DNA from: an uncultured Prevotella sp.
Lineage (GTDB): Bacteria; Bacteroidota; Bacteroidia; Bacteroidales; Bacteroidaceae
Reading direction: 5' to 3'
Assembly: GCA_947303825.1 (NCBI GenBank)
Contig: CAMYZK010000017.1
Span: forward strand, 1 to 16,854
DNA length: 16,854 nucleotides
Shown here: one piece after another, positions 2,172 through 16,854 of the stretch
How positions within the stretch are numbered: position 1 is the stretch's first letter
Layout: each line of letters starts with the position of its first letter
Translations under genes and position numbers: made by a program
Notes under the pieces: model-generated
What the model saw: the letters and a program-made list of their open reading frames with translations, nothing else
The model's database searches: none
Told to the model about the DNA's origin: nothing

Positions 2172-2224
2172 AACTCTTAACTAACTCTTAACTCTTAACT
2201 CTCAACTCTTAACTCTTAACTCTC
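2172..2224. repeat. Heptanucleotide tandem array, consensus AACTCTT/AACTCTC
   Basis: Seven full 7-bp units lie at 2172-2178 and 2183-2224, with a 4-base partial unit (AACT) after the first. The last six run T, T, C, T, T, C at their final base, so the array has a 21-bp higher-order period. The last unit overlaps the stop codon of the glsB-like gene (2223-2225). On the minus strand the units read as GAGTTAA or GAGTTGA. No CRISPR-type spacers are present. The array sits between glsB and the SGNH/MBOAT pair. No strong terminator hairpin is visible; a 5-bp stem at 2157-2170 is too weak to claim. Confidence 0.9.
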
Positions 2225-3215
2225 AATATCCTGACTTGTATATTATCTTGCCTGCACCGCTGGTAATTTTCATTGCCTCGGGGTGATCCTTGATGAAAGA
2301 GTCGATGTGGCGCACCCGCTTCTCCTCAAGTATCTCGTCCATAGCGATAAGGATGCCCGTCTCCTCTACGTCGCCAAACCCATAGTTGATGGCCGTTCCG
2401 AAGAGCTTCATAGTGGGCGACAGGCTCATATACGCATTGACCAGCGGCGGGATATTGTAGCCCAAGGCTCGTACTTCGCGGTTCAGTATGCGGTAGTCAT
2501 CCTTGAAGTTGTTCTCACAGAACAGCTCCTCCAGCTTTTTCTCGTCACTCTCTATCTTCAGCGGCTTCAGTGGCACCACCAGGCCTTCCTTGTCGCCGAA
2601 GTACTTCTTCAGGAAAAAGAGAATCATGTCGCGCCCCTCGCGTATATAGCTGGGGTACATTGTCATCTTTCCGAAGAAGTATTTTACGTTGGGCATGATG
2701 ACTGTCAGAGCTCCCAGTCCGTCCCACAGGTTGTCGAGGGCGAAGAGGCTCTTTGCTCCCATCCTTGAGCTTTGGTAGGGCAGGCTCACGAACGACCGTC
2801 CCAGCTCAATGGTGTAAGGCATGTATTCGTCTAGGAACTTCTGGCTGAAGTGGAACATGTGGCTTGTGGCCAGGTGGGGCTGCCCGTCGGCACCGATGTC
2901 CCATTTCGTCCCCTCCAGGTAGCGATAGCCGCCAATGATCTCGTTGGCCTCGGGATTCCATACGATAAGCTGCTTGTAGCAGTTCTCGCAGATGTCAAAC
3001 TCGTCAATGTCGCAGTCCTTACCTGTTCCTCCTCCTGCCTCACGGAATGCTATCTCGCGCAGACGGCCGATCTCACGCATCACATTCGGGGCGTTGTGGG
3101 CCGTAACGATATAAATCTCATTGTGGCTCTTGTTTGTCATGCGGAGCTGACGCTCGGCAGTGAGTTCTTCTTTGAGCACCTCAACAGGTATGGGTGCTAT
3201 TATGGGCTGTTCCAT
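2223..3215 (-). CDS. glsB: GNAT/OlsB-family N-acyltransferase, probable glycine N-acyltransferase GlsB
   Basis: This 330-residue protein looks like the OlsB/hemolysin-like GNAT group (COG3176). The N-terminal half carries the acyltransferase core, with the IGGYRYL strand (94-100) and the hallmark IELGRSFV (136-143) followed by a basic, small-residue stretch to about residue 160. Family knowledge: in Bacteroides thetaiotaomicron, glsB makes N-acyl-glycine from glycine and an acyl donor, and glsA adds a second acyl chain to give diacyl glycine lipids. The same gene pair is seen here, 5 bases apart, which suggests coupled translation. It has no signal peptide, so it probably works in the cytoplasm or at the inner-membrane surface. 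The alternative substrate would be ornithine (OlsB type). The gls assignment rests on the adjacency and on Bacteroidales ancestry. The stop codon is embedded in the heptamer array. Confidence 0.85.
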   Translation of the reverse strand: MEQPIIAPIPVEVLKEELTAERQLRMTNKSHNEIYIVTAHNAPNVMREIGRLREIAFREAGGGTGKDCDIDEFDICENCYKQLIVWNPEANEIIGGYRYLEGTKWDIGADGQPHLATSHMFHFSQKFLDEYMPYTIELGRSFVSLPYQSSRMGAKSLFALDNLWDGLGALTVIMPNVKYFFGKMTMYPSYIREGRDMILFFLKKYFGDKEGLVVPLKPLKIESDEKKLEELFCENNFKDDYRILNREVRALGYNIPPLVNAYMSLSPTMKLFGTAINYGFGDVEETGILIAMDEILEEKRVRHIDSFIKDHPEAMKITSGAGKIIYKSGY

Positions 3216-3220
3216 TATCT

Positions 3221-4051
3221 TTATAGTTTATAGACTTGTTCCTTTACGTATTCGGCCCATTCTGCGGGCGTCTTCGACTTGTCGGTAAATGTTTGCCAGG
3301 GTATAGGCTTGCCTATCTTCACAGGGAAAGTGTTGCCCCTGTTCTTGTACATCTCGTCAACGAGGTAAAGCATTGCCACATTGACCTTCTTGACATAGCG
3401 GTCGCTGATGTTCGACAGGCGATAGAAGAAGTTGCTGTTACGCCCTCCGAAGTGTATGGGCACCACGTCGCGCTGCGTCTCAATGCTCTTGGTGATAAAC
3501 GTCTTCTTCCACGGCAGGTCGCGTATCTCCCCGTTCTTGCGGCGCGAGCACAGGCCGGCAGGGAACATCAGCAGATGGTAGTCGCCCCTGAAGCCCTCCT
3601 CTACAATCTGGGGGAAGGCACGCGAGCGCTTTGTCGTGGTGTTGATGGGTATGCACAGCGGAGCCAGGCCCGGGAGCGTCATCAGCAGGTCGTTGACAAG
3701 GTAGCGGAAGCGGTCATCGTAGTGGCGGCCTATCACGGCTCCCAGGGCTACACCGTCAATGCCCCCCATGGGGTGGTTGGACACAAACGTGTACAGATGG
3801 CCGTCGTCCTTGGGAGGAAGGTTCTCCATGCCTTCAACCTCAACCTTTGTGTCGAGAAACACCAGACATTCCTCCAGCCAGGGAGAACCCTTGAGGTGAC
3901 GTGTCCTCCACAGAAACTCGTTCAGATGGTCCTGATGGGCACGTCGCTTAAGCCAGCCTTTAACAAATCCCGGCACCCAGCGGGCTTTCTTGCCCATCTT
4001 CTCGCGCAGTATTCTGTCAATGTCTATGGTTTTCTCGGTAATGACATCCAT
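3221..4051 (-). CDS. glsA: PlsC-like lysophospholipid-type O-acyltransferase, probable GlsA
   Basis: The chosen ATG at 4051 gives 276 residues. The frame is open much further upstream (to 4480), but that part would cross the divergent promoter region and has no family-like sequence. The acyltransferase core shows SNHPMGGIDG (91-100) as the catalytic motif, followed by FPAGLCSRR (163-171) in the place of the usual FPEGTRSR block, then VVPIHF (196-201). Family knowledge: these enzymes move an acyl chain onto a hydroxyl of a lysolipid. Beside a GNAT partner they finish ornithine or glycine lipids, here probably N-acyl-glycine to diacyl glycine lipid. It is the first gene of the glsA-glsB pair, and a TACTTTTG box lies 30 bases upstream. 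One oddity: histidine 93 and aspartate 99 are five residues apart rather than the classic four. Confidence 0.85.
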   Translation of the reverse strand: MDVITEKTIDIDRILREKMGKKARWVPGFVKGWLKRRAHQDHLNEFLWRTRHLKGSPWLEECLVFLDTKVEVEGMENLPPKDDGHLYTFVSNHPMGGIDGVALGAVIGRHYDDRFRYLVNDLLMTLPGLAPLCIPINTTTKRSRAFPQIVEEGFRGDYHLLMFPAGLCSRRKNGEIRDLPWKKTFITKSIETQRDVVPIHFGGRNSNFFYRLSNISDRYVKKVNVAMLYLVDEMYKNRGNTFPVKIGKPIPWQTFTDKSKTPAEWAEYVKEQVYKL

Positions 4052-4080
4052 TATGTTATAGATTTGATACTTTGAGCTTG

Positions 4081-4115
4081 CAAAAGTAACACTTTTTTTT
4101 GGTTTGTTGAACAAA
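4081..4115 (-). promoter_or_regulatory. Probable Bacteroidetes-type promoter for glsA-glsB
   Basis: On the minus strand, TACTTTTG (4088 down to 4081, followed by C) matches the -7 box TAnnTTTG. A TTTG at 4115-4112 could be the -33 box, but the 23-base spacing is longer than the usual 19-21, so the upstream element is uncertain. The -7 box ends 29 bases from the glsA start codon, which leaves a short leader. Confidence 0.6.
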
Positions 4116-4158
4116 AACTCCAAAAATATAGTAAAAATGTTATCTATTACGATAATAA

Positions 4159-4190
4159 TTTGATTTTTTAAAAGTTTTTTCGTATTTTTG
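4159..4190 (+). promoter_or_regulatory. Bacteroidetes-type promoter for the 4281-5548 gene pair
   Basis: TTTG at 4159-4162 and TATTTTTG at 4183-4190 (followed by C) are 20 bases apart, which is the expected layout for the major Bacteroidetes sigma factor. Transcription should start near 4195-4200, leaving a leader of about 80 bases. This argues against the in-frame TTG at 4188 as the start of the next gene. The region is AT-rich and divergent from the glsA promoter. Confidence 0.75.
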
Positions 4191-4280
4191 CAGAATGTTG
4201 ACTGTACCGATTGTCTGGCAAGGGTAACATCAGCATTGCAATACCTATTAACTGAATACAAACTATTAACAATTCCATTT

Positions 4281-5072
4281 ATGAAACACAAAACGATTGT
4301 TCCGTTGCTCATCCTCATGCTCTTTGCACCATTGGCCATACATGCGCAGGGGTCGGGGATAAGCAAGGATGCGCTAAAGAACTTTGATGACGGCGGTACT
4401 GTATACGTAAACACCAAGGCTCCCGGAGTACACAAGGAATACGACGAGAAGTATGGTGGATATGTATGGAAGGACGGCATGGGCAGCTACATCTGCAAAG
4501 ACAAGAACATGAAGCCACTGCACGACATTGACAAAGACTATTATTTCTCAGGCACCAACAACGACCCCGACAACCCCAAGGCCAGCTACAACGTGAAGAA
4601 GGTGTGGGACGAAGACCGTGGCTGCTATGTGTGGAAAGATGACACCGGCAACTTCGTAGGGCGCGACAAGCCATCGGCCGACAAGCAGAAAGACTGGCTG
4701 GCACAGAAAGACCAGGACTGGCTGAAGAACGGCACCGCACCGGGCGTGAAAGGCAAGCCCTCCGGCAGCAGTACGGCGAAGAAAGACGATGCCGACACTG
4801 GCAGTGCCGACTCTGGCACAGACAAGACAGAGTCGAAAGGCGATAGCGGAAAGACTATCGGAGGCAGTTCCGATGTTGACATGGAACACCTGATAATAGA
4901 GAGCGATGCACAGCTGGCTAAAGCCGAGGCTGCACTGAATGAGGCAAAGGCTGCCATAAAGATGGCGAAGGCCCAAGGAATAAACATCGACGAGTACTTC
5001 GACACCAGACTCATAAAGCAGGCCGAGGACAAGATAAATGAGTACAAACGTAAACGCAATATGATGAAATGA
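4281..5072 (+). CDS. Secreted protein of unknown function with two WKD-type repeats and a helical C-terminus
   Basis: I do not recognise a named family. The ATG at 4281 gives 263 residues and starts right at a good signal peptide (about residues 1-22, ending IHAQ). The frame opens earlier at 4188, but that TTG overlaps the promoter. The mature protein has two copies of a motif 55 residues apart: YGGYVWKDGMGSYICKDK (58-75) and RGCYVWKDDTGNFVGRDK (113-130). A Ser/Asp/Lys/Gly-rich linker follows (about 155-200). Then comes a charged, alanine-rich helix, probably coiled coil (about 201-258). It should be exported to the periplasm or outer surface. The gene overlaps the next lipoprotein gene by 4 bases (ATGA), so the two products are probably made together and may interact. 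Confidence 0.85.
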   Translation: MKHKTIVPLLILMLFAPLAIHAQGSGISKDALKNFDDGGTVYVNTKAPGVHKEYDEKYGGYVWKDGMGSYICKDKNMKPLHDIDKDYYFSGTNNDPDNPKASYNVKKVWDEDRGCYVWKDDTGNFVGRDKPSADKQKDWLAQKDQDWLKNGTAPGVKGKPSGSSTAKKDDADTGSADSGTDKTESKGDSGKTIGGSSDVDMEHLIIESDAQLAKAEAALNEAKAAIKMAKAQGINIDEYFDTRLIKQAEDKINEYKRKRNMMK

Positions 5073-5777: not shown

Positions 5778-5826
5778 AATACAAAACGAAACAATGAGAA
5801 AGATTCTCCTGATGGCCGCAGTCGCC
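5778..5826 (+). repeat. 49-bp direct repeat, copy 1 (leader plus signal-peptide code)
   Basis: This block runs from 16 bases before the start codon through the first 11 codons of the 5794 gene. It is identical, base for base, to 6906-6954 at the start of the next gene. The leader part includes ACAAAACGAAACA. Identity across both the untranslated and coding parts shows that the duplication, or later conversion, included the leader. Confidence 0.9.
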
Positions 5827-6861
5827 CTGATGACTGCCATGAACGCACAGGCGCAGAAGATCAAGGTAGTAGATAATGATGGCAATGCCATCCCGTTGGT
5901 AAGTGTGATGACCGAGGACGGTGTCCTCATCGGCACCACCGGCATGGACGGCGTGCTGGCCGATGTGAAGGGTGCCCGGAAGGTGGCCTTGACCCACGTG
6001 GCCTACAAGCCGCAGCTGGTCATCGTGGCTTCGCTGCAGGGGGGACGTATCACGTTGGAGGACATTGGTTATGACCTCGACGAAATCGTGGTGAAGCCCA
6101 AGCCCTACATCTATGTCGAGGTCTTCTACCGTGTCTATGTCTATCGCAACGACTCACTCTGCTATTTCCTCAGCGGCATCATGCCCAATGCCTACGACAT
6201 CCAGAAAAAGAAGATAGAGCATGGCAGCTATAACCAGGCAAAAAGCGAATTCTGTGAAAAGATGGGTGCTGCCGTCACATGGGCCGTCAGGGCAGAAAGA
6301 TTTGAAGCCGGCATAGCGGGCACCGGGAATTTACAGAGCATGGAGAAGCGCTTGAAAGACAAGTATTTCGTGACGGCTACTGTCGATAGTCCCGACCATA
6401 CGACTTACAGCAATCCGGAGGACGTCATAGGCCAGCTTGTACGCACTAGCGGTCAGAAGCGCATGACACTTGATGCCGGCAAGATGCAAATGTATGCCAA
6501 CAAAGCCAAGGGAGAGACGAAGATGCTGAAGAAACGTGAGGAAAAGGGCTACGAGTATCAGTTCACAACGATTTATGATGACGATACGGAGCCGAAGCAC
6601 GCGATAGAAAACTACATGATGGAATTGAATCACTGGGAGTATAACGACAAGAAAAGCCACGTGAAGTTCTTTATTGAGAACTACGCCACCGACCACTACT
6701 ACATGGACAAGCAGGAATGGAAGGACAAGAAGAAGTCGATGAAGGAAGACTACAGCCCCATGATGAAGCTCGACCAGCTGGACGCTTACGCCACCTCGCA
6801 CAACATCCCCGCCCTGTCGCCTGCCGCACGTCAGGCCATCGGGAAGCTCAGGCAATGGTAA
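5794..6861 (+). CDS. Secreted protein with SusC-type carboxypeptidase-regulatory-like domain, paralogue 1
   Basis: This 355-residue protein has a signal peptide (about 1-20, ending AQA). The domain that follows (about 22-100) has the features of the CarboxypepD_reg-like beta-sandwich at the N-terminus of SusC/TonB-dependent receptors: DNDGNAIPLVSVMTEDG, a glycine turn, VALTHVAYKPQ and the closing LDEIVV (95-100). In SusC proteins a TonB plug and barrel would follow. Here there is instead a soluble, charged region of about 255 residues that I cannot assign, with YIYVEVFYR, DSL and GIMPNAYD near its start. It probably sits in the periplasm or on the outer membrane. It is paralogous along its whole length to the 6922 gene downstream and shares its leader, so it arose by tandem duplication. 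A barrel gene ends the unit. Substrate or partner is unknown. Confidence 0.87.
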   Translation: MRKILLMAAVALMTAMNAQAQKIKVVDNDGNAIPLVSVMTEDGVLIGTTGMDGVLADVKGARKVALTHVAYKPQLVIVASLQGGRITLEDIGYDLDEIVVKPKPYIYVEVFYRVYVYRNDSLCYFLSGIMPNAYDIQKKKIEHGSYNQAKSEFCEKMGAAVTWAVRAERFEAGIAGTGNLQSMEKRLKDKYFVTATVDSPDHTTYSNPEDVIGQLVRTSGQKRMTLDAGKMQMYANKAKGETKMLKKREEKGYEYQFTTIYDDDTEPKHAIENYMMELNHWEYNDKKSHVKFFIENYATDHYYMDKQEWKDKKKSMKEDYSPMMKLDQLDAYATSHNIPALSPAARQAIGKLRQW

Positions 6862-6905
6862 AGAAGAACGGAGCTTATCGGGGTGGAAACACCGACTTTG
6901 AAATT

Positions 6906-6954
6906 AATACAAAACGAAACAATGAGAAAGATTCTCCTGATGGCCGCAGTCGCC
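6906..6954 (+). repeat. 49-bp direct repeat, copy 2
   Basis: Identical to 5778-5826. It again runs from 16 bases before the start codon through codon 11, here of the 6922 gene. A shorter part of the coding section (ATGGCCGCAGTCGCCATGATG) also occurs in the signal-peptide code of the third gene, starting at 8072. Confidence 0.9.
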
Positions 6955-8034
6955 ATGATGACTGCCATGAGCTCACAGGCACAGAAGATACAGATAGTAG
7001 ATAACGATGGCAATGCCATCCCGCTGGTCAGTGTTCTGACCGAGGACGGTGTGTATATCGGCAAGACCGACCTGAATGGTGTGCTGGCCGACGTGAAGGG
7101 AGCCCAGAAAGTGGGTCTGAGCCACGTGGCCTACAAACCGCAAATGGTCACGGTGGCCTCGCTTGCGGAGGGCAAAGTCACGATGGAGGATGCAGACCTC
7201 GGTCTCGACGAAATCGTGGTGAAGCCCAAGCCCTATATCTATGTGGAATACTACTTCCGAGGCTTCCGCTACATCGGCGACTCGCTGCGGGCCTACGGCG
7301 CAGGCATCATGCCCGTGGCCTACGATATCAAGAAGCACTACGAACCCAAAACTCGCTATGTGGCCTCGAAAGGTATCTTCGCCAACAAGGCGATAACCTG
7401 GCATGGAGCAGAAATAGCTAACAAGACACAAGAGATAGCCAAGCGCAACAAAAAACCGATGACCCAGAAATGGGTGATGGCAAAGGTTGTGCAGGAAACG
7501 TATGGGCTCAGTGTGACCAAAGACAGTGCAAGCCGAGAGCAGAACGGAGTTGGCTCCAAGCGCTGGCGGGTGGAAAACCCGAAGGGGATGGTAGGACAGA
7601 TTGTGCACGACGGAGGACTGTCGTATACTACGCTCGATGCCGCATTGATGCAGCGCTATCAAGACGAAATGGAAGGCAACGACAAACTACTGAAGAGACG
7701 GAAGGAGGCCGACTATGCCTACCAGTATGCCGATGTCTACCGCCTGCCGAGCGAAGATGACGGCGATATCCCCGACTTGGCCCGACTGGTTATGACGATG
7801 TACCACTGGGAACATAATACCGACAAGGGGCGCGAGCGCGACATCTACTACGTTTATGTTGTTAGTCATAGTTATGTCGACGAGGACGAGTTCAAGGCTC
7901 ACAGCAAGAATCTGAACCGCGGGCATGAAAGCGATATGACACTTGAAGAACTGCAAACATACGAGCGCCAGCACAATATCCCCGTCCTCGATGCCGTGCA
8001 ACTCAAGGCTATCGAAGCTTTAAAGACCCATTAA
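6922..8034 (+). CDS. Secreted protein with SusC-type carboxypeptidase-regulatory-like domain, paralogue 2
   Basis: The ATG at 6922 gives 370 residues. An ATG at 6883 in the same frame would add 13 residues ahead of the signal peptide and is unlikely, because the start at 6922 matches that of paralogue 1. Signal peptide about 1-20, then the same beta-sandwich (DNDGNAIPLVSVLTEDG, VGLSHVAYKPQ, closing LDEIVV). The next 15 or so residues (KPKPYIYVEYYFRGFRYIGD) are very like paralogue 1. After that the two diverge, although alignable islands remain to the end (LDA, LLKRR, MYHWE, HNIPVL). No barrel or catalytic motif is visible. It lies 60 bases after paralogue 1 and 16 bases before the outer-membrane barrel gene, so all three are probably one operon. 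Its function is not recognised; I infer only an envelope role. Confidence 0.87.
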   Translation: MRKILLMAAVAMMTAMSSQAQKIQIVDNDGNAIPLVSVLTEDGVYIGKTDLNGVLADVKGAQKVGLSHVAYKPQMVTVASLAEGKVTMEDADLGLDEIVVKPKPYIYVEYYFRGFRYIGDSLRAYGAGIMPVAYDIKKHYEPKTRYVASKGIFANKAITWHGAEIANKTQEIAKRNKKPMTQKWVMAKVVQETYGLSVTKDSASREQNGVGSKRWRVENPKGMVGQIVHDGGLSYTTLDAALMQRYQDEMEGNDKLLKRRKEADYAYQYADVYRLPSEDDGDIPDLARLVMTMYHWEHNTDKGRERDIYYVYVVSHSYVDEDEFKAHSKNLNRGHESDMTLEELQTYERQHNIPVLDAVQLKAIEALKTH

Positions 8035-8050
8035 TAATATATATATTTAT

Positions 8051-8650
8051 ATGATGAAAAAGATATTCGTAATGGCCGCAGTCGCCATGATGGCTGCAAT
8101 GAATGTAAGCGCACAGAATGGTTACGACGAGACAAAACACGAGGTGGCTATCACCCTCGGTGTGTGGTCGAACTCGCAGATTATCGATGCGTTTGAAAAT
8201 ATAGGCGGTGCCCTTGTGGGTGCCAAGTTTGAGAACGAAAAGTTCACGGGCCCCATCAGTGCAGAGTATTTCTATCACGTGAAGAACTGGCTCGGTGTAG
8301 GCGGCATCCTCGCCTACGGTCAGAACAAGCAGGATGTCTATCTCCTTGGCGACAAGGACGGTGAAATCAAGAACACCTACCTGACGCTGATGCCAGCCGT
8401 AAAGCTCGACTGGCTCCGCAAGAAGCACTTCGGCATGTACTCCAAACTTGCCGTCGGTGCCACCCTGCGCAACGAGAAGTACAACAGCGTTGATGCATCA
8501 AGCAAAGATGACAGCGACAGTGAGGTTCACGTGAACTGGCAGGTATCGCTGCTCGGAATAGAGGCCGGCGGCCCCACCATCCGTGGTTTCCTTGAGCTGG
8601 GCACTGGTGAACAGGGCATCATGCTCGTCGGTGTGCGCTATAAGTTCTAA
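8051..8650 (+). CDS. Small outer-membrane beta-barrel protein
   Basis: This 199-residue protein has a signal peptide (about 1-21, ending VSA) and then alternating polar/hydrophobic strands separated by turns. The last residues, MLVGVRYKF, end in the C-terminal phenylalanine typical of outer-membrane barrels. The strand count and length suit an 8-stranded barrel of the kind common in Bacteroidetes. Translation may begin at 8051 or at the adjacent ATG at 8054. The signal-peptide code shares 21 bases exactly with paralogue 2, so the three signal sequences have a common source. It is the last gene of the 5794-8650 unit. Whether the barrel anchors or exposes the two paralogues is inference only. 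Confidence 0.87.
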   Translation: MMKKIFVMAAVAMMAAMNVSAQNGYDETKHEVAITLGVWSNSQIIDAFENIGGALVGAKFENEKFTGPISAEYFYHVKNWLGVGGILAYGQNKQDVYLLGDKDGEIKNTYLTLMPAVKLDWLRKKHFGMYSKLAVGATLRNEKYNSVDASSKDDSDSEVHVNWQVSLLGIEAGGPTIRGFLELGTGEQGIMLVGVRYKF

Positions 8651-8745: not shown

Positions 8746-8776
8746 TTTGTGTTGTGCCCGTTTCATCGTATCTTTG
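8746..8776 (+). promoter_or_regulatory. Bacteroidetes-type promoter for the 8867-16854 operon
   Basis: TTTG at 8746-8749 and TATCTTTG at 8769-8776 (followed by C) are 19 bases apart, the best-formed promoter in the window. Transcription should begin near 8783, leaving a leader of about 85 bases with no obvious riboswitch or strong hairpin. A weak inverted repeat (GCAAT/ATTGC around seven As, 8722-8738) just upstream could help end the previous transcript. Confidence 0.8.
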
Positions 8777-8866: not shown

Positions 8867-9004
8867 ATGAAAATCAAGTATTCAAAACCAACAACAACGG
8901 TCGTCCTGATAAAAGGAGGACAGCATTTACTTGCGGGAAGTGGCGGAGTTCAAGCCACGATGTCGGGATATGATGAAGACACAGCAGGTGGCTTTTCACA
9001 ATAA
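8867..9004 (+). CDS. 45-residue peptide with LLAGSGG motif, first gene of the fimbrillin-like/giant-protein operon
   Basis: The ATG at 8867 lies about 85 bases after the predicted transcription start. The longer open frame from 8735 would begin upstream of the promoter and is ruled out. The peptide has a basic N-terminus (MKIKYSKPTTT), a short hydrophobic run (VVLIKGG), the motif QHLLAGSGG and an acidic C-terminal end (GYDEDTAGGFSQ). It has no standard signal peptide or transmembrane helix. I recall similar short proteins with a (K/Y)xKPT start and an LLAGS or ILAGS motif as common in Prevotella genomes, but cannot confirm this here. The glycine pairs (GG at 17-18 and 26-27) recall double-glycine leaders, yet no C39 peptidase is visible in the window. 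It lies 18 bases before the fimbrillin-like gene. Its role is unknown. Confidence 0.75.
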   Translation: MKIKYSKPTTTVVLIKGGQHLLAGSGGVQATMSGYDEDTAGGFSQ

Positions 9005-9022
9005 GAATATAACTAACAGATT

Positions 9023-9997
9023 ATGAAGAAGATATATTTCAAGACTGGTATAGTAGGAATCATTTGCCTATTGTCATTTACTACCGTTCCTGTTTCCTGT
9101 TCCTCCGATGATGACGGGTCGGAGAACACCGAGCAAAACACCGACGGCCGCAAACTTCGGCAGTTGACCATTACCGACGTACCCATCACAAGGGCTACGC
9201 TCGATGAAAAAGGTTCCGCTATTAGTGCATTATGGACTGCAGGTGACAAGGCTACATACTTTAACCTGAGCACCTTTCTCACCAATAATATGGATTACGG
9301 TACGCTCGAAGCTTCTAAGACTGCTAGAACTTCCACTTTTACTGGTACTGTCCGATGTGGAAAAGACGATTATATTTCTCTGTTCTATCCCGCGACAGGC
9401 CCTTATCCTATTACATATCCTAGTACGGATTATCGGGGCACTTTTGCTGTCAAACTGAGCGGTCAGAAAGGTACACTTGCAGATATTGCCACGAACTATC
9501 ACTATGTCTATGGCATAGGGGAAGTGGCTTCAGTAACTGAGACCACAGCCACTGCTACCATCTCGCCGATGAAGTCGCTGCTCGCTGTGTGTAGGTTCAC
9601 ATTCAAGGATGGCAGCAACACTATTCCAGTTAAAACACTGAGTATAGGCTATGGATACAATGACGCGTCATACGGATATTCTGAAACTGGTTACCCTCTC
9701 ACTGGAACTGTGAATCCTTTCAAAAAGGTTAATAATGTAACAACAATTGTTCCTATTGAGGATATAAGCGTGACAGCCGATCCTCCTTCAGACACCCGGC
9801 TCACCTTTAACTTTGGTGATGCCCCAGCCGGTGCAGTCTATGCGGCTCTTTTCCCTGTAAGCAGCCAGCTTTTCCATTTCACCGTTACAAACGATGACGG
9901 CACCTACACCGGCACTGCCACAGCCACCCTGAAAGCAGGAAAATTCTACAACGTTCCCCCCCTCAAGTTAACTAAGAAGTTACCAAGTAATAACTAA
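9023..9997 (+). CDS. Fimbrillin-like (Mfa/FimA-type) surface lipoprotein
   Basis: This 324-residue protein has a lipoprotein signal peptide with cysteine 26 (TVPVSC; proline at -3 is not the usual residue). The stretch after it, SSDDDGSE, is the acidic type that acts as a surface-export signal for Bacteroidetes lipoproteins. The mature part resembles fimbrillin-like proteins: ITRATLDEKG (55-64), then LWTAGDKATYF (70-80), a beta-rich body with a VTIS-type mid strand, and a late strand of the ATATLKAGKFYNVPPLKLTK type. Family knowledge: these form or decorate type V pili, where the lipoprotein is moved to the surface and processed. It sits between the 45-residue peptide (18 bases upstream) and the giant protein (12 bases downstream), so a role in a shared surface structure is likely. 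By eye its codons are more T/A-ended than those of its neighbours. A stand-alone surface lipoprotein is the alternative. Confidence 0.82.
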   Translation: MKKIYFKTGIVGIICLLSFTTVPVSCSSDDDGSENTEQNTDGRKLRQLTITDVPITRATLDEKGSAISALWTAGDKATYFNLSTFLTNNMDYGTLEASKTARTSTFTGTVRCGKDDYISLFYPATGPYPITYPSTDYRGTFAVKLSGQKGTLADIATNYHYVYGIGEVASVTETTATATISPMKSLLAVCRFTFKDGSNTIPVKTLSIGYGYNDASYGYSETGYPLTGTVNPFKKVNNVTTIVPIEDISVTADPPSDTRLTFNFGDAPAGAVYAALFPVSSQLFHFTVTNDDGTYTGTATATLKAGKFYNVPPLKLTKKLPSNN

Positions 9998-10009: not shown

Positions 10010-13000
10010 ATGAAAACTAACCAACTTATCAGAATGATGGCTGTGGTGCTGGTGGCACTGCTGGCCGGGACCTCGCCTTCTTGGGCGTGGGGCTATGAAG
10101 ACTGGGACTACGACGAGGGCGGAGGACGATACTACTTCCGCAGTGAGAACCACTACTACAATGACTGGAACGCTGGTGCCGTGGATGCCTTCCGCACCCA
10201 GAGCACCTTCAGCTTCGCCGACGACCGCTTTGCATGGGAATTCGAGTTCCGCGTCCTTAACCCTAACATCTATATATATAATGTGGCCCTCGAAGGCGAA
10301 GTCTTTGTAGTGACGCGCGACGATGTGTCGCACAAGATGGGCACCTGGAAAAAAACGCAGAGCGAGACCAGCAATCCTACCTGGAGTGTGACCGACAACA
10401 GTTACGGCACTTTCAACGTTTCCAAGGTCGGCGACGGCCACTCGATGAAGGTGAAGTACTCGCCCAAGCAACGTGCCTTCGACGACGGTGTGAAGTGCAT
10501 CGTCTTCAAGAGCCACATCCTCTATAACTATCAAAACCAGAAGAAGTGGGACTCAGGCTGGATGCAGTATGAGAAGCCGCTCGACCTGGCAGCCGTCTTA
10601 GGAGAAGAGACGCCCATGCCACGCATGACCTACGAATGGAAAGACGATGGCAACATGGTTTGCACGGCCAAAAACATGCTCAACAAGTTCAACAATGCCT
10701 ACTACAGCTGTCAGCGCTATGGCTTAGACCTGTACTATGGAAACCGTCGTGGAGATTATGACAACCTGAATCCCTATAACAATTTGGACAGGTGTGTGAT
10801 CACCGACCACTACAACGGAACAATGGACGCGGTGTTTACCACTGGGGCATCAAACGATAATACGCCTCCTTACACCACGCCTGTCTTCACAAAGTACTTC
10901 GCACGCACTCACGTCTATCCCAATGGCAACAAGAGCGTTGAAGAAGAGTTCACACAGCCTTACGTCTATGATGTCCTCAAGCCCTTCACCTATCCTGCAA
11001 CGATGAGCGTGGAGTTTGACAAGTGGAACAAGCACACTACCATCAAGTGGACCCGCCAGAATTCAGTGCGTGCCAACGACTGGAACAATCAGCCGCAGGA
11101 TGTGGCCTGCCGCTTCGACGGCAAGTGGTATGTGGTACGCTATGAGAAAGACCATCCTGCCGACTATACCCTCTTAGGTTCAAAGAAGGGCGATGATGCC
11201 AATCTTCAGATGACTGACGACGACTTCGAGTATGAGAAAGACTACGTCTATCGCGTGCTCTTCATCCCTACACTCCTTGAGAACAAATGCAAGGACCACC
11301 TCACTGAGGCCATTCCAGGCGAGAACCCGGACTATACTGGGTCGGCACGCCTCTGGAAAGAGACTGCGCTGAGCACGAAGCTCGACATGCCCATCCGCCT
11401 GGCCCAGGACCGCACCTATTTGACAGCCGTGCATCTGGTGTGGGAATACTGCGTGCAGCCCTCCGGCCAAAACTGGACCATCGAATACAGTCCGGCGGGC
11501 GAGAACGCCTGGCGCGTGTTGGACAACAGCCTTAACGTCGACCCCGACAAGTCGGTGGCCAGCTTCGATGCCGACGGCACCGTGTGCGACCTGATGGACT
11601 ACCGTGTGAAGACCGCGTATGCCGGCAAGGAGTTCTACAGCAACGTCATCACCGGCAGCCTCCCGGCAGGCAGCTATATCAGCGAGGTGAAAGCCTCGAC
11701 AGGCACTGAGGAGAAGACCGTCGTCGTGAAATGGAAGGTGACACGCGCCGACATGACCAACGACATCTACTACCGTGTGCTGCGCCGTCAGATAGGCACC
11801 GACGAGTGGACGCTCGTCACCGACGACATCCACGGCACGGCATCTGAATATACCTACACCGACGACCGCGTGATGGCCGGCTCGTACTATGAGTACACCG
11901 TCGAGGCATACGGCGCGAAGTGCGAGGACCAGTTGGTGAAGACCGACGAGGTCATCACTCCCGGCTTCTCGCAGGCTCGCGGCACCATCACCGGCCACAT
12001 CGCCTTCGGCACCGGCACCGCCGTCACCGGTGTGCGCGTCAGCTTAGTGAAGTCGTCGGCCGACGAGGACACCGACCAGCCGCAGTTCCTCTCACGCTAC
12101 ATCGAGGGCGAGGGCAAGGGTCTGCAGTGGATGGCCGACTCGGCCAAGTATGCCGGCGTGCTCAACAGCGGCAAGAACCTTACGCTACAACTGTGGGCAA
12201 AGCCCGACGCCAACGGCGCAGCGCAGATGGGGCTGCTCAACCTTCCAGGCACTGTGGAGATAGGCGTCAAGCGCATCGGCGACACGTCGGGCTACGAGCT
12301 GCAGCTGCCCGTGGAAGGCGATGACCGCTACCTCACTGTCGACGGCAGCTTCATGATAGGCAGTGCCAGCGACTGGAAGCACTTTGCCGACTTAGTGAAT
12401 GGCGGGCGTAACAATCTTAACGCAGTGATGACCGCCGATGTAAACCTGAGCGAGGCACTGACGATGGTGGGCACCAGTAGCCACCCCTATAGCGGTACCT
12501 TCGACGGCAACGGCCATACGCTGACCTTCAATCCCGTGCCCTTCAGTGAGCAATACGTCGCTCCCTTCCACTGTGTGGGCAACGCCACCATACGCAACCT
12601 CCATGTGGCAGGCTCCATCAGCAGCTCGCAGAAATTTGCAGCAGGCCTCATTGCCAGTCTCACCGAAAACGCAACCACCGTCATTGAGAACTGCCGCTCG
12701 TCGGTCAACGTGGGCAGCACCGTCAGTGGCGATGCCACCAACGGCGGCTTCGTGGCCAATGCAGGCTACTGCAAACAACTGACCCTGCGCAACTGCCTGT
12801 TCGACGGCAGTCTGACGGGCGAGAACAGTCACAGCTTTGGCGGCTTTGTGGGATGGAGCGAGGAGAAAGTGACGGTGGAGAACTCAGTGTTCGCACCCTC
12901 CTCCGTCACAGTGAAGAGCGATGTCTGCTGTACCTTCGCTCGCATGAGAAACGCAAGTAAGCTGACGCTCACCAATGCCTACTACACTCAGTCCATCGGC

Positions 13001-16000
13001 ACCGAGCAGGGCACCAGCATGAGCGGGCACGACCTGCAGACGCTGGCTTCTACGCTGGGGGCGTCGTGGAGCGTGCTCAGCGATAAGCTGATGCCCGTGC
13101 TGACCACCGTCGCCGTGCAGGCCGCCACCCGCAAGGCATACACCGTAGCCACCGTGGAGAAGGGCAACGGCACGTCCCAGGACAGCACCGCCGTCTACCA
13201 GCTCTATGCCGTAGACCTGACTACCGCCACTCCGAAGGTAAAGGAGTTTCCCTCGCTCACCTTCAGCAGCAGCGAGTTCACTCACGTGGCCGCCATCTAC
13301 AATGGTTCGTCGAAGTGGACCTTCTATGTGGGCACCGACACGCTGCGCACCGACGAGATGACCATCGACGACAGCAAGTGGAACACCTTGCAGAAAGTCT
13401 ATGACACCTCTACAGCCGCTAACACCACACCCACCATGGGCTTCGGCGGCACCAACCGTGTGTCGGGCAATGCGTTCAAGGGCTATGTCGATGACATCCG
13501 GCTTTGGAGGCATGCCCTCAGCGAGAAGGAACTGAACGCCAACTATACACGCATCCTTGGCGGTACCGAGGACGGCCTCATGCTCTACTGGCCATTGGAC
13601 GAGGGCATCAGTGTGAAGAGATATGCCTTCGACGTGGCACGCCAAGATGGTATCTACCAACTGAACCACCCCGTGGTGGGCGTCAACGCCACCCCGTCGG
13701 CCACCGTGCCCAACGCCCGCTATCTGGCACTCTATGGTCTGACAGACGCTGAGGGCGACTATATCATCAAGGGCATCCCGTTCCAGCAGGGCGGCACAAA
13801 CTACAAGCTCGTTCCCTCGATGGGCAGCCACGAGTTCAACCCCAACTCGCGCTCGATGTTCATCAGCCCCACTTCGCTGACGGCCAACAACATCGACTTT
13901 GAGGACGTGTCGTCGTTCCCCATGAGCGGCCACATCTACTATGCCGGCACGAACATCCCCGCCGAGGGCATACAGTTCTATATAGACGGCGAGTTGGTGA
14001 CCGCCAACGGCGAGGAGAAGAAGACCGATGCCAATGGCTATTACCAGATTTCAGTACCCATCGGCTGGCACTATGTCCAGGCCAAGCTGGGTGGCCACAC
14101 GATGGCGGCGGGCGGTCGCTTCCCCACCGAGAAAACATTCAACTTCAACCGCGCCGTACAGCACGACTTTGCCGACTCCACGCTGGTCAACTTTGTGGGC
14201 CGTGTGGGCGGCGGCGTACGCAACGACACGCTGGCCGTGGGCTTCGCCGAGTCGAAGAACAACATTGGCATGGCCATCATACAGCTGAAGCTGAACAACG
14301 AGTCGTTCTCGTTCAACCAGCTGCAGGGCGACCCCTACACGGCGGCCACCACGCAGCGCACCTGGGACAGCGACACCACCAGCATCGCCAGCCGCGCCTG
14401 GACAGGCACCGACTACGACGCGAAGTACATCTACATCCGCACCGACTCGCTGACGGGCGAGTTCTCGGCGCTGCTGCCCCCGCTGAAATACATCACCAAG
14501 AGCATACGCTTAGTGGAGAAAGAGAAGAACCCCGACATAGAGTTCACCACGCTACCCGAGATTGACATGACCAACGCAATGAAGGAGTTGAAGGACTCGC
14601 TGAAGCAGGCTACGGAGCTGGGCGACTCGGTGTTCCACTACTACACTTACAACTCAAAGATGGTGCAGACACACTTCAGCAAGCCCATCGTAGAGCTGTC
14701 GCAGCCCGGCAGCGACCCTGGTGTGTTCGGCATCGCTGAGTACAAGGGCGAGGACGCGCTGGGCAAGTTCACCGTCGGCAACCTGTGGACGAAGCAGGAT
14801 GACGGCACCATCAAGTACAACTACGGCTTCCCCATCTACAATATGGGCAACACCTACCGCATGACGTTCTTCGGCTATGAACGCTACCTGAACTACGACA
14901 GCGGCAAGCCCGTGGAGCACATCATCCCGCTGAACGGGCAAGTGCTCACCATCGCCAACGAGATGAGTGCCGACCAGAAGGTGGTCTATGCTTCCGACGG
15001 CACTAAGCCCGAATACCAGCCGGGACAGGTGTACGACCTGAAGGACAACCAGATTGTGCTCGACAGCGTTGGCCGGTTCACCATGCAGTGGAGCACCGGC
15101 GCGCCCAATGTGGCGAGCCCCTTCACGCGCCACCTCGGCGTGACGCTGGTGCGCAACGGGCGCACTTACATACCTGCCACCCTCGACGCCGTCGTGGTGG
15201 GCAGTCTGCCCATGGGCAACAACTTCGTGACCAACGGCCCCTCCAAGGTGCTCATGGTGCTGCGCGACCCACCGGGAGCCAAGTCGAAGACGGTGTGGAA
15301 GCGAGGCACCACAACGACAACGGTGGAGACCTCGGCCAACGGCGGCTACGGTGATGAGAAATTCGCATACTCAACCAGTACGGGTGTCAAGACTGAGACA
15401 CATGCCGGACTGGGCATCATGACACTGACACTGCAAAACGAAACGACCTTCGACACCAACGACGGCATACACTACAAGTGGAATAAGGAGTCGTCGAACG
15501 AGACAAGCTGGGCGATGACTGCCACGCAGGATATCTCGACCAGCGCCACGAAAGACTACTGCGGCTCAAAGGGCGATGTCTTCATAGGCTTCTCCACCAA
15601 CCTGCTCATCGGCCAGTGCCGCAAGGTGGGATTCTTCCGCGACAACGAGAGCGCACCCTTCGAGCTGAAGGAAAACGTGGCCGTGAGCATTGGTGACAGC
15701 GTGACCACCAACTTCATGTATTCCACCTACGAGTTGGAAGAGGTGATGATGCCGAAATGGAAGGAGACGCGCAACAACTACCTCACACAGCATTTCAACA
15801 CCGAGGACGAGGCGAAAGCTTTCGTCAACAACACCAACGAGGTGGTTTACGTCACCTGGCTGAAGGAAGACGACAAAGACTACGGTAAGAAAGGTACCTA
15901 CCTACCCGTGGTTCCTGTATCATGGGACCAGAAGGAAGAATATGTGGCCGACGACATGGTGCAATGGTGCAACGACCAGATAGACAGCTGGAGGGAAGTG

Positions 16001-16854
16001 CTGAGCAACAATGAGGAAGACAAGGTGAAGTCGATGGCCGACCATGACAACTGGCTACGCAACATCTCCTTCGACGGCGGCTCGAGCTATACCTACACCA
16101 GCAAGAATGACACCACTGAAACCTCGAAGGTGAGCTATTCGCACAATCTGGGATATATGCTGAAGCTTGGCTACAGTAGCAAGACCAGCGCCTTCGTCAC
16201 CTTCAAGAGCACGTTCTCCATGGACACCGAGAACGGATGGTCGCACTCCGATTCCGATACGGACAAGGAATACAACTATGCCGAGTTCGACTACATCTTC
16301 GACGATGGCAACAAGGGTGCCGACTTCTCCGTCGACATCTACAAGTCGAAGGCAGGATGGAGCGACATCTTCAGCCTCTTCGGCGGCCAGTCGTACAACC
16401 CCTACGAGGGCGAGGAGAAGACCAAGTACTTCGAGGAAGGACAGCACACGCTGAGCAACGGCACGGTGCGCATGGAGCAGCCCGACATCAAGGTCAGCCT
16501 CGATGGCCAGATAGCTGCCAAGGAGGCCACGCTCACCGACGTACCGGCGGGACAGACAGGGCAGTTCACCCTGCACCTATCAAACAACAGCACCACCACG
16601 CAGGGCTTCGACTTCAGCTACAACATCATGGTGCAGGAGATGGCCGACACGTTGGGACTGGAGATCCTGATGGACGGCGTTCCCGCCAATGGGCGCAGCA
16701 TCTTTGTGCCTGCCGGCGAGACGGTGAAGAAGATTATCACCGTGCGGCAGACCGACCAGAGCATCCTCGACTACGAAGGTGTGGAGATATGGTTCCTCTC
16801 GCAGTACCAACCCATCAAAATCAACGACAAGTGTAAGCTCAACGTACACTTCAA
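10010..16854 (+). CDS. Giant secreted multidomain protein (FN3-like, split LamG, GLUG-type beta-helix, carboxypeptidase-regulatory-like), 3' end beyond window
   Basis: One frame stays open for 2,281 codons from the ATG at 10010; I checked it at several points along its length. Signal peptide about 1-26 (ending SWA). Domains in order: an aromatic beta-rich region (27-325); FN3-like segments near 329, 464 and 555; a short carboxypeptidase-regulatory-like segment at 658 (GTITGHIAFGTG); the first half of a LamG-like domain (about 690-780, LTLQLWAKPD at 724); a GLUG-type beta-helix (about 785-1031, GTFDGNGHTL at 829, GGFVGWS at 944); the second LamG half (FTHVAAIYNG at 1090, YVDDIRLWRHALSEKELN at 1159); two carboxypeptidase-regulatory-like segments (1243 and 1307); and a long unassigned region with LRDPPG (1751) and GGQSYNPYEGEE (2125). 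A beta-rich domain begins near 2156. It is probably a surface adhesin or binding protein. A type IX secretion tail could lie past the edge but cannot be seen. Confidence 0.88.
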   Translation, partial: MKTNQLIRMMAVVLVALLAGTSPSWAWGYEDWDYDEGGGRYYFRSENHYYNDWNAGAVDAFRTQSTFSFADDRFAWEFEFRVLNPNIYIYNVALEGEVFVVTRDDVSHKMGTWKKTQSETSNPTWSVTDNSYGTFNVSKVGDGHSMKVKYSPKQRAFDDGVKCIVFKSHILYNYQNQKKWDSGWMQYEKPLDLAAVLGEETPMPRMTYEWKDDGNMVCTAKNMLNKFNNAYYSCQRYGLDLYYGNRRGDYDNLNPYNNLDRCVITDHYNGTMDAVFTTGASNDNTPPYTTPVFTKYFARTHVYPNGNKSVEEEFTQPYVYDVLKPFTYPATMSVEFDKWNKHTTIKWTRQNSVRANDWNNQPQDVACRFDGKWYVVRYEKDHPADYTLLGSKKGDDANLQMTDDDFEYEKDYVYRVLFIPTLLENKCKDHLTEAIPGENPDYTGSARLWKETALSTKLDMPIRLAQDRTYLTAVHLVWEYCVQPSGQNWTIEYSPAGENAWRVLDNSLNVDPDKSVASFDADGTVCDLMDYRVKTAYAGKEFYSNVITGSLPAGSYISEVKASTGTEEKTVVVKWKVTRADMTNDIYYRVLRRQIGTDEWTLVTDDIHGTASEYTYTDDRVMAGSYYEYTVEAYGAKCEDQLVKTDEVITPGFSQARGTITGHIAFGTGTAVTGVRVSLVKSSADEDTDQPQFLSRYIEGEGKGLQWMADSAKYAGVLNSGKNLTLQLWAKPDANGAAQMGLLNLPGTVEIGVKRIGDTSGYELQLPVEGDDRYLTVDGSFMIGSASDWKHFADLVNGGRNNLNAVMTADVNLSEALTMVGTSSHPYSGTFDGNGHTLTFNPVPFSEQYVAPFHCVGNATIRNLHVAGSISSSQKFAAGLIASLTENATTVIENCRSSVNVGSTVSGDATNGGFVANAGYCKQLTLRNCLFDGSLTGENSHSFGGFVGWSEEKVTVENSVFAPSSVTVKSDVCCTFARMRNASKLTLTNAYYTQSIGTEQGTSMSGHDLQTLASTLGASWSVLSDKLMPVLTTVAVQAATRKAYTVATVEKGNGTSQDSTAVYQLYAVDLTTATPKVKEFPSLTFSSSEFTHVAAIYNGSSKWTFYVGTDTLRTDEMTIDDSKWNTLQKVYDTSTAANTTPTMGFGGTNRVSGNAFKGYVDDIRLWRHALSEKELNANYTRILGGTEDGLMLYWPLDEGISVKRYAFDVARQDGIYQLNHPVVGVNATPSATVPNARYLALYGLTDAEGDYIIKGIPFQQGGTNYKLVPSMGSHEFNPNSRSMFISPTSLTANNIDFEDVSSFPMSGHIYYAGTNIPAEGIQFYIDGELVTANGEEKKTDANGYYQISVPIGWHYVQAKLGGHTMAAGGRFPTEKTFNFNRAVQHDFADSTLVNFVGRVGGGVRNDTLAVGFAESKNNIGMAIIQLKLNNESFSFNQLQGDPYTAATTQRTWDSDTTSIASRAWTGTDYDAKYIYIRTDSLTGEFSALLPPLKYITKSIRLVEKEKNPDIEFTTLPEIDMTNAMKELKDSLKQATELGDSVFHYYTYNSKMVQTHFSKPIVELSQPGSDPGVFGIAEYKGEDALGKFTVGNLWTKQDDGTIKYNYGFPIYNMGNTYRMTFFGYERYLNYDSGKPVEHIIPLNGQVLTIANEMSADQKVVYASDGTKPEYQPGQVYDLKDNQIVLDSVGRFTMQWSTGAPNVASPFTRHLGVTLVRNGRTYIPATLDAVVVGSLPMGNNFVTNGPSKVLMVLRDPPGAKSKTVWKRGTTTTTVETSANGGYGDEKFAYSTSTGVKTETHAGLGIMTLTLQNETTFDTNDGIHYKWNKESSNETSWAMTATQDISTSATKDYCGSKGDVFIGFSTNLLIGQCRKVGFFRDNESAPFELKENVAVSIGDSVTTNFMYSTYELEEVMMPKWKETRNNYLTQHFNTEDEAKAFVNNTNEVVYVTWLKEDDKDYGKKGTYLPVVPVSWDQKEEYVADDMVQWCNDQIDSWREVLSNNEEDKVKSMADHDNWLRNISFDGGSSYTYTSKNDTTETSKVSYSHNLGYMLKLGYSSKTSAFVTFKSTFSMDTENGWSHSDSDTDKEYNYAEFDYIFDDGNKGADFSVDIYKSKAGWSDIFSLFGGQSYNPYEGEEKTKYFEEGQHTLSNGTVRMEQPDIKVSLDGQIAAKEATLTDVPAGQTGQFTLHLSNNSTTTQGFDFSYNIMVQEMADTLGLEILMDGVPANGRSIFVPAGETVKKIITVRQTDQSILDYEGVEIWFLSQYQPIKINDKCKLNVHF

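Follow-up and report, generated by a model that had tools for sequence, protein, structure and literature searches.

A leader-bearing small peptide encoded with a fimbrillin-like lipoprotein and a giant LamG protein in an uncultured Prevotella: a candidate RiPP-like precursor

What does a 45-residue peptide do when it is encoded directly in front of a fimbrillin-like lipoprotein and a protein of more than two thousand residues? The question is raised by a 16,854-nucleotide stretch of DNA from an uncultured Prevotella sp. (hereafter the window), which is the entire contig 17 (G000:C17) of genome G000, an assembly of 385 contigs that is 70.7% complete. Coordinates of the open reading frames (ORFs) and a pattern match bear out a preliminary description of three genes behind one promoter, with gaps of 18 nucleotides between peptide and lipoprotein and 12 nucleotides between lipoprotein and giant, and the three likely form one operon; the span of 10010-16854 given earlier for this operon is that of the giant alone, the operon itself starting at approximately 8776. 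The promoter consensus, which we take to be of the Bacteroidota type, is matched at two places when the + strand of the entire window is scanned, and neither RNA families nor tRNAs were detected in the window. Related proteins bear names that likewise point to a Prevotella-like genome. We consider it fairly probable that the operon encodes two exported proteins that form a surface assembly, together with a precursor resembling that of a ribosomally synthesized and post-translationally modified peptide (RiPP) and similar to those of the linear polyphosphorylated peptides (LPP), which would be matured in trans. The features in question are the following:

8746..8776, + strand: promoter with the pattern TTTG-N19-TATCTTTG (pattern match)
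8867..9004, + strand: precursor-like peptide of 45 residues from its ATG, LLAGS family (ORF and profile)
8867..8932, + strand: leader-like part of the peptide, residues 1-22, with YxxP at residues 5-8 (8879-8890) and a putative boundary
8933..9001, + strand: core-like part of the peptide, residues 23-45, with a conserved Ser at residue 25
9023..9997, + strand: lipoprotein of 324 residues with a type V pilin (FimA/Mfa) fold, a lipobox-like Cys26 and an invariant Arg57
10010..16852, + strand: giant LamG protein, first 2281 residues, without a stop before the contig end
12302..13195, + strand: insert within the LamG region, residues ~765-1062, with approximate borders drawn from the match limits of relatives
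13253..13534, + strand: second half of a LamG domain (Laminin_G_3), residues 1082-1175 (Pfam, E 2.4e-7)

Judged by its sequence, the peptide is not specific to this operon and belongs to a family of peptides with leaders that is linked to cargo of the type IX secretion system (T9SS), to lipoproteins and to a gene cluster for a PqqD-type RiPP recognition element (RRE). The string LLAGSGG, previously regarded as special to the operon, proved to be the end of a leader-like segment common to many peptides, with the family pattern Y-x2-P-x3-[VI][VI]...[LI]L-x2-S. Searched with a profile of 13 peptides, G000 yielded nine places, and a 22-row profile had matches in 89 of 100 genomes of the genus, with up to 27 per genome. 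Among 22 peptides scanned against Pfam and NCBIfam no match rose beyond chance level, the best, weak NCBIfam matches being lasso peptides (three, E 0.14-0.45, likewise at chance level). Leader positions were counted in 70 peptides of the genus and 23 from outside it, numbered from the Tyr of YxxP, a match to which was the condition of inclusion. Positions +7 and +8 are mostly Val or Ile, +16 is mostly Leu or Ile, +17 is often Leu, and Ser occupies +20 in 52 of the 70 genus and 16 of the 23 outside-genus peptides. Within +18 to +21 a Ser is present in 66/70 and 22/23, as against 5/70 and 0/23 in the control interval +8 to +11 and 22/70 and 7/23 in the interval +24 to +27.

The region past the conserved Ser differs according to the neighbouring gene. 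The window peptide carries the core signature MSGY...GGFSQ, common to peptides of this operon type, and [IM]SGY...GFxQ was found in 7 of the 93 peptides: the five for which a separate gene is visible downstream all stand ahead of a lipoprotein of the window type, the sixth is in frame with the lipoprotein (L255), and the seventh has no downstream sequence. In L255 (1501-2610, genome G413) peptide and lipoprotein share one ORF, which may be a real fusion or may reflect a lost stop codon.

Eight of the nine places in G000 are outside the window, each immediately downstream of a gene on the same strand with a T9SS-type tail. Tails with a C-terminal domain (CTD) were detected across the genus with a hidden Markov model (HMM) that was built from the tails of 65 distinct giants only and is therefore blind to the peptide neighbours. 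The 70 unique genus peptides divide into 33 located behind a CTD gene, 25 located ahead of a lipobox gene, 3 in both positions and 9 in neither. Cargo thus defined directly precedes 36 of the 70 peptides, whereas 26 of the 494 genes in a background of two 400-kb stretches from two other genomes carry the tail (p 4e-21, by a statistic that ignores kinship), the gap from the cargo stop to the peptide ranging from -4 to 153 nucleotides. All ten non-window matches in G000 follow a CTD gene, the tenth being at C63 (gap 18 nucleotides, E 4e-9). When an acidic export-like signal was required of the lipoprotein neighbour, 19/70 peptides qualified vs 23/288 (p 4e-5). Only a minority of T9SS cargo genes carry a peptide. 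Peptides were also seen behind genes with a different C-terminal tail (such as ..NGKIAIYKNGVKFNVAGQ.. or ..GDKMYDATGRLVK) in L130, L160, L270, L274 and L277, and this alternative tail is perhaps a further export signal.

For the link to the RRE, gene neighbourhoods are more telling evidence than co-occurrence counts. A search for PqqD domains covered 17 genomes, and 16 loci were viewed by eye; an HprK-like ORF (~300 residues) was recognised in at least 11 of the 16 and a signal-peptidase-like ORF (~150 residues) in about 10; some loci also have an MsbA-like exporter, and a minority an NTP transferase. A precursor adjoins HprK-like and peptidase-like genes or PqqD in three loci: L262 (outside the genus, found by the peptide alone) holds a peptide, an HprK-like and a signal-peptidase-like gene; L300 (outside the genus, found by PqqD alone) holds a gene with a long T9SS-type tail (by eye), PqqD and a peptide (11 nucleotides); and L208 (within the genus) carries on one strand a peptide, a lipoprotein and, 306 nucleotides on, PqqD. 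The outside-genus locus L301 comprises PqqD, NTP transferase-like, HprK-like and Wza/Wzc-like genes (the last by eye), a peptide and a lipoprotein matching Mfa_like_1, and in G269, scored PqqD-negative, the peptide precedes HprK-like and peptidase-like genes. In the window and in most genus loci seen, the precursor lies away from the cluster, and precursors are scattered.

Family scans of cluster proteins, with members from L197, L199 and L205 only, recovered PqqD at 8e-17 and ABC (ATP-binding cassette) and NTP_transf_5 above cut-off. The PqqD proteins fall into PF05402, and N35/D73 are invariant in 7/7 of them, G000's own included, in an alignment to TfuB1. This protein, which we take to be a lasso leader-binding protein, is by sequence the nearest solved relative of these PqqDs, and its N and D align with N35/D73. 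In LppB, the YxxP motif is held at its Pro and its Tyr by residues of this kind, N33/D70 (PMC13381572), to which N35/D73 are likened by analogy, not by alignment.

Across 100 genus genomes, peptide with PqqD, peptide only, PqqD only and neither were recorded in 79, 10, 3 and 8 genomes, respectively (p 2.9e-5); the same classes comprise 41, 1, 2 and 6 of the 50 good genus genomes and 6, 4, 16 and 220 of 246 other genomes of the order (p 4.3e-5, the statistic again ignoring kinship). The translocon gene for SprA was found in 95 of the 100 genus genomes, including all 8 good peptide-negative ones, so T9SS is not the explanation for peptide absence.

Two further observations concern this neighbourhood. 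An acyltransferase/GNAT-like pair (by eye) lies on the - strand of the window (2223-3215 and 3221-4480); its look-alikes directly precede HprK-peptidase-PqqD in L197 (3857-5705), and L202 (3099-3927) has one of the two as well. The PqqD cluster may thus have an old neighbourhood here. In L298 and L299, both outside the genus, genes with a long T9SS-type tail (by eye) stand upstream of PqqD, HprK-like and peptidase-like genes, and no peptide was recognised in these two loci.

In the favoured explanation, the precursor would be made beside its surface protein, and a PqqD-type RRE encoded elsewhere in the genome would capture the leader YxxP...LLxxS, a step supported by association through co-occurrence, neighbourhoods and residue conservation. 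An HprK-like kinase may phosphorylate the conserved Ser just past the leader, a peptidase may remove the leader near ...LL|AGS, and an MsbA-like ABC exporter may send the core out, where it would act with the neighbouring surface protein, here the fimbrillin/giant pair; a joint role of giant and lipoprotein in adhesion is probable.

Several observations weigh against this explanation. The evidence for modification consists of sequence and gene context, not biochemistry; ...LL|AGS does not conform to a classical signal peptidase site; the HprK-like and signal-peptidase matches fall below curated cut-offs; and the PqqD gene of G000 lies near a contig end, so that the rest of the cluster is out of view in this genome. 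As to neighbours, the loose lipoprotein test is weak (28/70 vs 70/288, p 0.007), a strict pattern yields only about 2 convincing peptides in the two 400-kb stretches with their 26 cargo-like tails, and 13 of the 23 outside-genus peptides, like the nine genus peptides mentioned above, were placed by script in neither context. Outside the genus, 16 of 22 PqqD genomes are without a peptide match and 4 of 10 peptide genomes without PqqD. Within it, G032 (97% complete) has 2 peptide matches and no PqqD, nine further genomes (completeness 56-88%) are likewise peptide-positive and PqqD-negative, and G045 and G064 have PqqD without a peptide match. G004 and G222 were scored peptide-negative despite a YxxP ORF near PqqD; since divergent members escape the profiles, the peptide-only and PqqD-only cells are both uncertain. 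When 40 genomes were placed on a SprA tree, with the weak PqqD of G004 scored absent (present in another scoring), PqqD and peptide changed only four times each, so the genus figures are not independent; of four independent pairs on this tree, 2 agree, 2 show no difference and 0 are opposite (sign test p 0.5).

Whether the scheme extends to a multi-substrate pathway of Bacteroidales, in which one RRE/kinase/signal-peptidase/exporter set would mature dozens of phosphopeptides, each dedicated to an adjacent surface protein (T9SS cargo or lipoprotein), is a more doubtful matter, and we regard this extension as possible while inclining against it. If true, it would constitute a previously undescribed kind of peptide-modification or cofactor system serving the cell surface.

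The two large proteins were examined for their own affinities. The earlier designation of the lipoprotein as fimbrillin-like holds: sequence or model gives it the type V pilin fold, and 18 of 47 aligned proteins match Mfa_like_1, the window's own having no match. Cys26 and Arg57, the latter a putative processing site following the first strand, are invariant in 47/47, and a lipoprotein signal is predicted from the residues.

The giant ORF is cut at its 3' end because the window is the whole contig; for the same reason the assembly has no sequence past 16854, and the missing third was taken from relatives. Among 937 related proteins, 120 of which were listed, the matches listed include P0002 and P0003, which have 3,539-3,565 residues and are 98 and 97% identical to the query along its full length. 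The C-terminus of P0002 shows a ...DPS/GI... site that is followed by WYTLQG, by SGVYLF and, last, by a basic tail, the same order as in the short T9SS CTDs of Prevotella intermedia, described as having cleavage at PT/GI and motifs B, D and E (PMC11969387). A similar or related tail was seen by eye on most stop-bearing giant ORFs and was not evident by eye in L041, L042, L049 and L063. As to the proposal to look beyond 16854 for a T9SS CTD, the domain is absent from the truncated window ORF and present, in its short form, in P0002 and P0003 and in most full-length relatives read. On these sequences, a predicted T9SS CTD is a feature of the full-length members of the giant's family. The T9SS search was for SprA alone, which is full length in G000 (TIGR04189, 2612 bits) and was found in 0/14 control genomes.

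Of the modules formerly ascribed to the giant, LamG stands as a significant Pfam match, limited to profile positions 73-150 of 151; no other Pfam family was above cut-off in the giant, and P0002 has three LamG stretches. The supposed beta-helix module (~765-1062) is without any Pfam match and missing in many relatives: many proteins of ~3,220 residues lack this segment, their matches reaching ~770 and resuming at ~1062-1082. Residues 778-1032 alone match other proteins, and at a threshold of E <= 1e-20 the giant is matched in 99 of 200 genus genomes, in many of those listed via the inserted module only. In L055 two giants occur in tandem, the second beginning at the end of the first.

Conservation of the gene order was assessed in 33 of 41 other giant ORFs, those with at least 2.6 kb of upstream sequence. 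Peptide and window-like lipoprotein are both upstream in 11 of the 33, so that the operon is conserved in one third of the giants examined; adjacency is as tight as in the window in three of the 11 (L033, L038 and L039), and the other eight have intervening sequence or genes, the lipoprotein of L069 being a short remnant. A window-like lipoprotein without a peptide was found in 0 of the 33. Peptide-lipoprotein-giant order also occurs in another family (L254). The conserved order proposed in the preliminary description thus recurs, and the scattering named there as evidence to the contrary is seen in part, since 22 of the 33 giants, including the close relatives L037, L040-L042, L044 and L048, have no window-like lipoprotein upstream. 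Among these, a peptide stands directly in front of the giant in L059 and L063 (by HMM) and in L055 and L066 (by eye), and the L057 giant has a peptide and a different lipoprotein upstream.

In L032, L034, L035, L036 and L046 a lipoprotein-like gene of 370 residues lies between fimbrillin and giant. In the window itself, three genes for secreted-like proteins with near-identical N-terminal signals (5794-6861, 6883-8034 and 8051-8650, + strand) were noted; the first two resemble tandem paralogues, and the third matches OMP_b-brl just below cut-off, a similar barrel-like ORF being found behind the peptide-lipoprotein pair in L157 (3619-4168).

These data bear differently on the other explanations of the operon. 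The peptide could be a dedicated intracellular chaperone or adaptor that escorts the neighbouring large surface protein to export and is never modified or cut; its adjacency to T9SS cargo and lipoproteins fits this, as does the operon-specific core [IM]SGY...GFxQ with its window-type lipoproteins downstream. We nevertheless hold it unlikely, as it leaves unexplained both the co-occurrence and neighbourhoods with PqqD, HprK-like and signal-peptidase-like genes and a leader grammar that resembles those of lasso peptides and LPP and in which the Ser is almost invariant. Much less probable still is a regulatory leader ORF coupling or attenuating downstream translation. Although the window peptide is the first ORF past the promoter, 18 nucleotides before the lipoprotein, and other peptides too sit just ahead of a lipoprotein gene, the 36 of 70 genus peptides that follow cargo often have no gene of at least 100 residues within the scanned downstream distance, and it is the amino acids, beyond mere position, that are conserved across families.

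The remaining explanation, to which we give about as little credence as to a chaperone, is a type V pilus with the giant as a very large adhesive tip or partner and the peptide as a small structural part. The pilin fold of the lipoprotein, the order recurring in 11/33 giants and one other family, and the single ORF of L255 speak for it, whereas the giant resembles T9SS cargo and type V pilins travel as lipoproteins. Moreover, 22 of the 33 giants have no window-like lipoprotein upstream, many peptide relatives adjoin non-pilin proteins, and further pilus genes, which the preliminary description proposed to look for, are absent from the contig. As far as the two large proteins are concerned, this reading and the favoured surface assembly with an LPP-like precursor can hold together, and the giant as a pilus tip is possible; the lipoprotein as an anchor is likewise hypothetical.

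Compared with known systems, the window lipoprotein is like the type V pilins (FimA/Mfa) of Bacteroidales in its fold, its lipobox-like Cys and the Arg after the first strand, and unlike them in its operon partners, a peptide and a T9SS-type giant in place of the usual Mfa or Fim accessory set. The short-CTD T9SS cargo of P. intermedia (PMC11969387) has C-terminal motifs like those seen in relatives of the giant and in many genes linked to a peptide; that paper, in the part available, makes no mention of adjacent small peptides, and its main text uses 'downstream', 'operon' and 'hypothetical protein' 0 times. With paeninodin-type lasso peptides the system shares a PqqD/B1-type leader-binding protein, a [Y/W]xxP leader and genes resembling those for an HPr kinase and a nucleotidyltransferase (PMC7533575, PMC13381572). 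Neither the lasso leader peptidase B2 nor a macrolactam cyclase was recognised by eye beside the PqqD genes, no dedicated search having been made.

The closest parallel is with the LPP RiPPs, whose parts, as far as the accessible text goes, are an archaeal-type signal peptidase, a discrete RRE, an HprK-like kinase that phosphorylates core Ser3, an NTP transferase and an MsbA-like exporter, acting on a leader YxxPxVLxHQxIxFETxxS (PMC13381572). In the same text these RiPPs are stated to be restricted to Bacillota and their biological role to be unknown, and 'Bacteroid' and 'Prevotella' occur 0 times in the main text. The Bacteroidales system differs in its hosts, in a Ser placed mostly at Y+20 (Y+18 in LPP, counted from the printed motif) and in its dispersed precursors, which reach 27 matches per genome and are encoded next to lipoprotein or T9SS cargo genes. 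It agrees with LPP in peptides with a YxxP leader, a variable core and a conserved Ser near the leader end, and in a discrete RRE; relatives also have genes resembling those for the other listed parts, the kinase and peptidase below curated cut-offs and the NTP transferase in a minority of loci. As in LPP, no lasso cyclase was noticed, and polysaccharide genes are nearby in L301 (by eye). If LPP-like machinery runs in Prevotella-like bacteria with precursors paired to identifiable surface proteins, this pairing would offer a handle on the purpose of such peptides, and T9SS cargo would acquire a small partner not suspected so far; many small ORFs would also receive a first annotation. On paper, the Bacteroidales system would work like the LPP RiPP machinery.
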